DNA from: Patiria pectinifera
Lineage: Eukaryota > Echinodermata > Asteroidea > Valvatida > Asterinidae
DNA length: 64,000 bases
NCBI GenBank assembly: GCA_029964075.1
Contig: CM057137.1
Span: forward strand, 682,001-746,000
Reading direction: 5' to 3'
The notes below the pieces were generated by a model. The model was not told where the DNA came from, searched no databases, and saw only the letters and a program-made list of their open reading frames with translations. Both the position numbers and the translations under genes were made by a program. How positions within the stretch are numbered: position 1 is the stretch's first letter; every line of letters begins with the position of its first letter. Below, in pieces: positions 43,984 through 63,990 of the stretch.

Positions 43984-63990
<20,007 letters not shown>

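Follow-up and report, generated by a model that had tools for sequence, protein, structure and literature searches.

A repeat unit of a dispersed, probably mobile element occupies the putative splice donor of a MYT1-like gene

The window analysed here, a stretch of 64 kb, carries a MYT1-like gene on its minus strand, one intron of which begins directly with a tandem repeat array (Table 1). The exon upstream of this intron ends CTCAACAG and the intron begins GTGATTGACTTGTGATTGAC, with 57065 as its first base. We found that the opening intron bases, GTGATTGACTT (57055..57065, minus strand), are one exact repeat unit standing in the place of the splice donor, and that the array touches the exon, as the preliminary description had reported for both the junction and the starting point of the array. 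The intron (56252-57065) is 814 bases long, and with phase 2 on both sides the exon at 57066-57233 joins in frame to the exon starting at 56251. The predicted protein matched the Pfam family zf-C2HC above the cut-off (50.1 bits) and the MYT1 domain just short of its own (25.4 bits against 27), and its closest solved structures were MYT1 zinc fingers. The exon beside the array, which was sought for a haplotype comparison, is present in a single copy in the assembly. Neither of the two Pfam matches (zf-C2HC, MYT1) crosses the junction 57066/56251, as might be expected if the gene model were wrong and GTGATT were not the donor used. However, the zinc finger, the open frame, the matching phases and a donor score that is the best in the scanned stretch of exon and intron all speak for the model, and we consider such an error improbable. 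We infer that the predicted donor is used in the RNA.

Table 1. Features of the MYT1-like locus and of the element family in the 64-kb window
Feature	Position	Strand	Remarks
Copy H, in L3MBTL-like intron	4843..4971	-	
Copy A, long right-arm array, in L3MBTL-like intron	5875..6440	+	outer borders by eye
Array with terminus-like end at 11432	11090..11432	-	Tandem Repeats Finder 11090-11418; 15 bases inside donor 11447 (L3MBTL-like)
Copy B, short, inverted arms able to pair	28530..28737	+	
Diverged array (CAAGTCCTCA units)	32237..32624	+	starts 6 bases past exon border of PCMT-domain gene
Copy C, interrupted by nested insertion	46485..46826	+	
Copy D, interrupted by nested insertion	53438..53959	-	border 53438 approximate
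Next MYT1-like exon	55353..56251	-	border 55353 approximate
Intron remainder outside element	56252..56608	-	357 bases, non-coding, to acceptor TTGCAG
Element terminus CAGAATTGTAGTCT	56609..56622	+	MYT copy, end away from exon
Distal array, about 25 units	56623..56893	-	271 bases; 86% of bases in exact units
Element core (copy E)	56896..56988	+	profile from other five copies, E = 1.5e-9
Donor-side array, about 7 units of 10/11 bases	56991..57065	-	75 bases; 97% of bases in exact units
MYT1-like coding exon, 5' of junction (zinc-finger end and linker)	57066..57233	-	ends CTCAACAG, phase 2

Instead of the unbroken run of hundreds of repeat bases that had first been described, the intron holds a 75-base array, a 97-base stretch containing an element core (56894-56990) and a 271-base array. 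The end of this MYT copy that faces away from the exon carries the terminus CAGAATTGTAGTCT, while no terminus matching CAGAATTGTAGTCT was seen at the exon side. The exon-side array is oriented like the distal array, having the orientation of a left arm at the position where the right arm should lie; the copy has no arms in opposite orientation and departs from the usual form of the family. The two MYT arrays were the most uniform among the long arrays of the window, with Tandem Repeats Finder matches of 92 and 95% compared with 84 (11.1 kb), 71 (6.0 kb) and 68-75 (32.2 kb) elsewhere. Exact GTGAT(T)GACTT units made up 0.86 and 0.97 of the bases in the MYT arrays versus 0.37, 0.12 and 0 in the others, the value of 0 for the 32.2-kb array being given by construction, as its unit differs. 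The uniformity fits recent turnover, and together with the missing near terminus it indicates that the exon-facing end of the MYT copy has been remodelled, probably recently. The 357 intron bases outside the element had no self-match in the 64-kb window at E 1e-4, save a 2-base overlap with one array match, and the three reading frames of 355 of them hold 5, 14 and 10 stops. Because these bases lie outside the element, the intron probably predates it. Next to the surviving terminus, the 8 bases beyond the element have no second copy at the exon side, and target duplication thus gives no proof of insertion there. Folded as single-stranded DNA, the MYT copy had a modest structure (z -1.78; 4/100 shuffles were at least as good), and Rfam gave no match on the sequence at gathering thresholds.

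We then compared the donor with the other GT sites of the arrays. With approximate weights for metazoan donors in general, the MYT donor CAG/GTGATT (the slash marks the exon border) scored 4.84 bits and ranked 13th, counted from the lowest, of the 23 donors scored, several of which have approximate gene borders. The best of the 33 GT sites in the MYT arrays reached -0.63 bits, 5.5 bits below the real site. The first unit alone is a good donor because only this unit sits behind CAG, while every further unit is preceded by CTT, which explains the weak scores downstream. Moreover, reading past the exon into the array meets TGA at once, directly past the junction codon (MLNR, then stop), and therefore no downstream unit can yield a full-length protein. 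The earlier suggestion that many units offer further GTGATT donor sites thus holds for the hexamer, which is indeed present in later units, but not for its strength or its coding outcome.

The copy in the MYT1-like intron is one of six core copies in the window (at 4.9, 5.9, 28.6, 46.5, 53.5 and 56.9 kb), each of which was recovered by a profile of the other five with E values of 2e-19 to 3.5e-4, the weakest belonging to the interrupted copy C and to copy H. The element plan has a conserved core between arms of 10-11-base repeats, with short repeats at the termini. In typical copies the left arm is built of CAAGTC(A)ATCA units and the right arm of their reverse complement, which allows the copy to fold back; at the family level, inverted tandem-repeat arms around a middle domain were found in copies B, A, D and H and at the loci L040 and L063. 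The outer arms of copy B pair with z -1.73 (12/200 shuffles were at least as good). Two copies contain nested insertions: that in copy C (46585-46730) has the ends CAGGCATGCAACT and AGTTGCATGCCTG and a flank repeat of TGACAAAG or CTGACAAAG, and that in copy D (53554-53891) has the ends CTATGGGCTCCGTGC and GCACGGAGCCCATAG with TA on both sides. The window also holds repeats of other kinds. Another dispersed element, with the ends AACCAGTT...AACTGGTT, occurs as inverted copies at 1604-1855 and 58285-58533 (254 bases, 80% identity), a further copy being recognised by eye in L035; a short palindromic element lies at 47257-47419 and 59850-60037, the two places aligning in either direction with 76-79% identity; 16-base repeats (ACGCCTCGTAGGTCCG and related sequences) cluster in forward and reverse orientation at 12666-12870; and a 17-base tandem repeat at 7831-7920 comprises 5.3 copies with 97% matches.

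The source genome (613,548,705 bases, or 613.5 Mb, in 1020 contigs) was searched for the same family. Two exact units in tandem gave 1699 forward and 1776 reverse matches, overlaps counted, against 0 for the control. The core search returned 1812 first-look candidates, and when the best 40 of these were scored all 40 matched, namely the query itself and 39 further places with 91-94% identity. Six copies fetched from these best 40 and aligned had the core in common (6/6), and four of the six had a left end of the CAGGGATGT type. Only L063 among the six showed both ends, CAGGGATGTA and TACATCCCTG. The terminal motif of hAT elements is CAG...CTG. Terminal inverted repeats of the CAG...CTG type are both present in L063, while in most other copies at most one end is seen. 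The 8-base flanks were 7/8 alike in L078 (C22:19104958-19106400; CTTCTGGC and CTTTTGGC) and 6/8 alike in L063; no such flank repeat was found for the MYT copy. In L078, the left end of which is shortened after CAG, the terminus of the element is itself a consensus donor, CAG/GTGAGTCC. Judged by copy number, termini and flank length, the element appears to be non-autonomous and foldback/hAT-like. The preliminary description was thus right to speak of a mobile repeat, in so far as the family occurs in many dispersed copies, which makes mobility probable, and the intron begins with its unit. Twenty arbitrary 10-kb pieces (200 kb) contained 1 core copy and 3 array clusters, and the window contains 6 core copies and, by the same rule, 10 array clusters, hinting that it is rich in element copies, which is as far as a sample of 20 pieces goes. 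Two patterns gave 0 matches in a viral collection, and 16 single 17-base matches in prokaryote contigs were taken as chance and left unused. The genome-wide distribution also bears on a local origin of the array, in which tandem duplication of an exon/intron boundary would have produced it, as with the mirage minisatellites of amphioxus, where genes have tandem arrays on exon/intron borders according to the accounts in PMC3087553 and PMC3902484. However, two exact units in tandem occur at thousands of places and the unit GTGATTGACTT contains no exon bases, the point on which we rejected boundary duplication; we regard it as very unlikely.

Taken together, these observations are best accounted for, with a probability of about 0.58, by an element in an old MYT1-like intron that lost its exon-facing end, whereupon its repeat unit took over the donor. 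A non-autonomous foldback/hAT-like element would have inserted into a pre-existing MYT1-like intron, bringing arms of tandem 10-11-base repeats that may expand and contract. A later change at the exon-facing end would have removed the near terminus together with the original first intron bases and left the array flush with the exon. Splicing could have survived such a change, as the unit is readable as GTGATT and the exon supplies the preceding CAG. The same junction might also have arisen with nothing replaced, if the donor already was GTGATT or near it and the array merely expanded up to it: an old GTGATT donor with an array expanded beside it would look identical, a start of GTGA is common among donors (4/23 of those scored, the MYT donor included), and coding sequence would halt any array at the exon border. 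Against this, the identity to the unit is unbroken over at least 11 bases, a match of low probability by chance, but one that array turnover could also have brought about by homogenisation. We hold a pre-existing donor to be unlikely, while giving it appreciable weight. If, as the takeover by the repeat unit implies, an older donor was replaced, the locus would offer a clean example from nature of a tandem array driving splice-site turnover. The observation itself is real and ordinary in its parts, namely an abundant element in an intron that is probably old, a repeat of which now forms the putative donor. The locus shows repeat DNA of a probably mobile element exactly at an exon border, where it is tolerated: the repeat passes as a donor and its further copies cannot compete.

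We further examined how general the placement of an array next to a donor is. Array-to-donor gaps in four modelled introns of the window were 0 (MYT), 6 (PCMT-domain gene) and 15 and 256 bases (L3MBTL-like), where the 15-base gap relies on the terminus-like end at 11432 and the plain array ends 29 bases from the donor. Other copies lie deeper in introns, about 100 bases from the donor at 4.97 kb and 256 at 6.4 kb. The zero gap of the MYT array had p ~0.003 under uniform placement in its own intron, which was picked because of the gap. Fisher p values for the array-donor gaps were 0.0023 with MYT and 0.058 for the other three introns (one-sided), and became 0.014 with and 0.18 without MYT when either intron end was counted (two-sided). 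Genome-wide, a strict junction pattern (VV plus two units) was found at 17 places, 4 of which read AG, and only one of the 17, the MYT place, has non-repeat, non-element DNA upstream. A looser pattern, CAGGTGATN{0,1}GACTTGTGA, was found at 14 places, 12 of them within arrays or elements; the 2/14 that adjoin non-repeat DNA are MYT and L070/L079. Both patterns need exact units and miss decayed cases. The PCMT-type junction pattern occurred genome-wide at the window's own place alone, where the junction TTAG/GTGAGT is crossed by a PCMT profile match. L070/L079 (C8:7583900-7585300) is a saposin-like gene whose intron, from base 190, opens GTAAGTATCAG before an array, and its junction is crossed by a SapB_1 match. 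This intron is 831 bases long, with the first ~700 filled by the same kind of array, and CAG/GTGATGG lies 11 bases inside the donor.

The order of donor and array was also counted. Within 30 bases, donor-then-array gave 4 matches at 3 loci and array-then-donor 0 for one orientation of the unit, versus 0 and 0 for the other. The three loci are L077, where the site follows an open 50-codon frame for which Pfam names no family, L078, which is the element's own end, and L076. Such an asymmetry is expected, because an array that shortly precedes a donor would sit in the exon, and it is too small to count. L076, L077 and L079 had suggested a fixed insertion 8 bases past donors, and this was rejected as no spacing is preferred: 22 matches were spread over spacings 0-12, with 2 at the spacing that a donor serving as target duplication would give and a control of 5, in a pattern whose matches are not proven to be element and which cannot match L076 or L079. 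A general habit of donor takeover by the family is not supported. It may still be that the family supplies 5' splice sites repeatedly: termini and units alike can read CAG/GTGAGT or CAG/GTGAT, and array turnover would let copies at intron starts take the donor, with the MYT1-like gene, perhaps the PCMT-domain gene, and L079 with its ready second donor 11 bases inside as cases; we find this doubtful.

The junction had initially been likened to an introner, an element that makes an intron and supplies its splice site. The family is dispersed, its repeat equals the first intron bases, and the L078 terminus itself can be read as a donor, all of which agree with such an origin. However, the MYT element has a recognisable terminus at 56609, 357 bases of intron separate it from the acceptor, other copies lie deeper inside introns, non-repeat DNA upstream of the strict pattern is confined to the MYT place, and the spacing between donor and terminus shows no preference. 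We rejected the introner on the non-element intron bases and the genome-wide scarcity of the junction among exact patterns, and consider it very improbable that the element made this intron. The case has the look of a single event in which an old splice site was taken over rather than of an intron-making element, and the MYT junction has no bearing on the origin of new introns.

Foldback elements of Drosophila (FB) and sea urchins have inverted arms made of tandem repeats. The present family resembles them in its inverted tandem-repeat arms, its outer flank and middle domain, its lack of coding capacity, the varying length of its arrays and its dispersed high copy number. Tetris, a foldback of D. 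virilis, is described in PMC4079207 as having inverted tandem-repeat arms of ~220-base units, an outer flank, a middle domain, variable array lengths and no coding capacity; in contrast, the units here are 10-11 bases and a whole copy can be as short as ~210 bases (copy B). Most foldbacks are assigned to the Mutator superfamily, as far as that account goes (PMC4079207), whereas the termini of this family look hAT-like. Like hAT-type MITEs, the copies are short, non-coding and numerous, with CAG...CTG termini and, in one copy (L078), an 8-base flank repeat that is 7/8 alike; unlike them, repeats near the ends have been amplified into long arrays. In a few literature searches of partial coverage, we noticed no description of this element family or of a minisatellite unit serving as a donor. 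The array on the exon/intron border of the MYT1-like gene recalls amphioxus mirages, tandem arrays at such borders that seemingly leave splicing undisturbed (PMC3087553, PMC3902484), but mirage units are described there as spanning the border in one gene, whereas the present unit contains no exon bases and occurs genome-wide. Introners, as treated in PMC9860276, are mobile elements that make introns, the family contributing splice-site bases. The family does so at the MYT junction, but the element does not run from end to end of the intron (357/814 bases lie outside it), which seems older, and instead of many introns sharing element and splice sites, exact patterns alone gave 1/17 strict and 2/14 looser places. 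Overall, the MYT case works like donor takeover by a foldback-type element and lacks the tested defining features of both introners and mirages.
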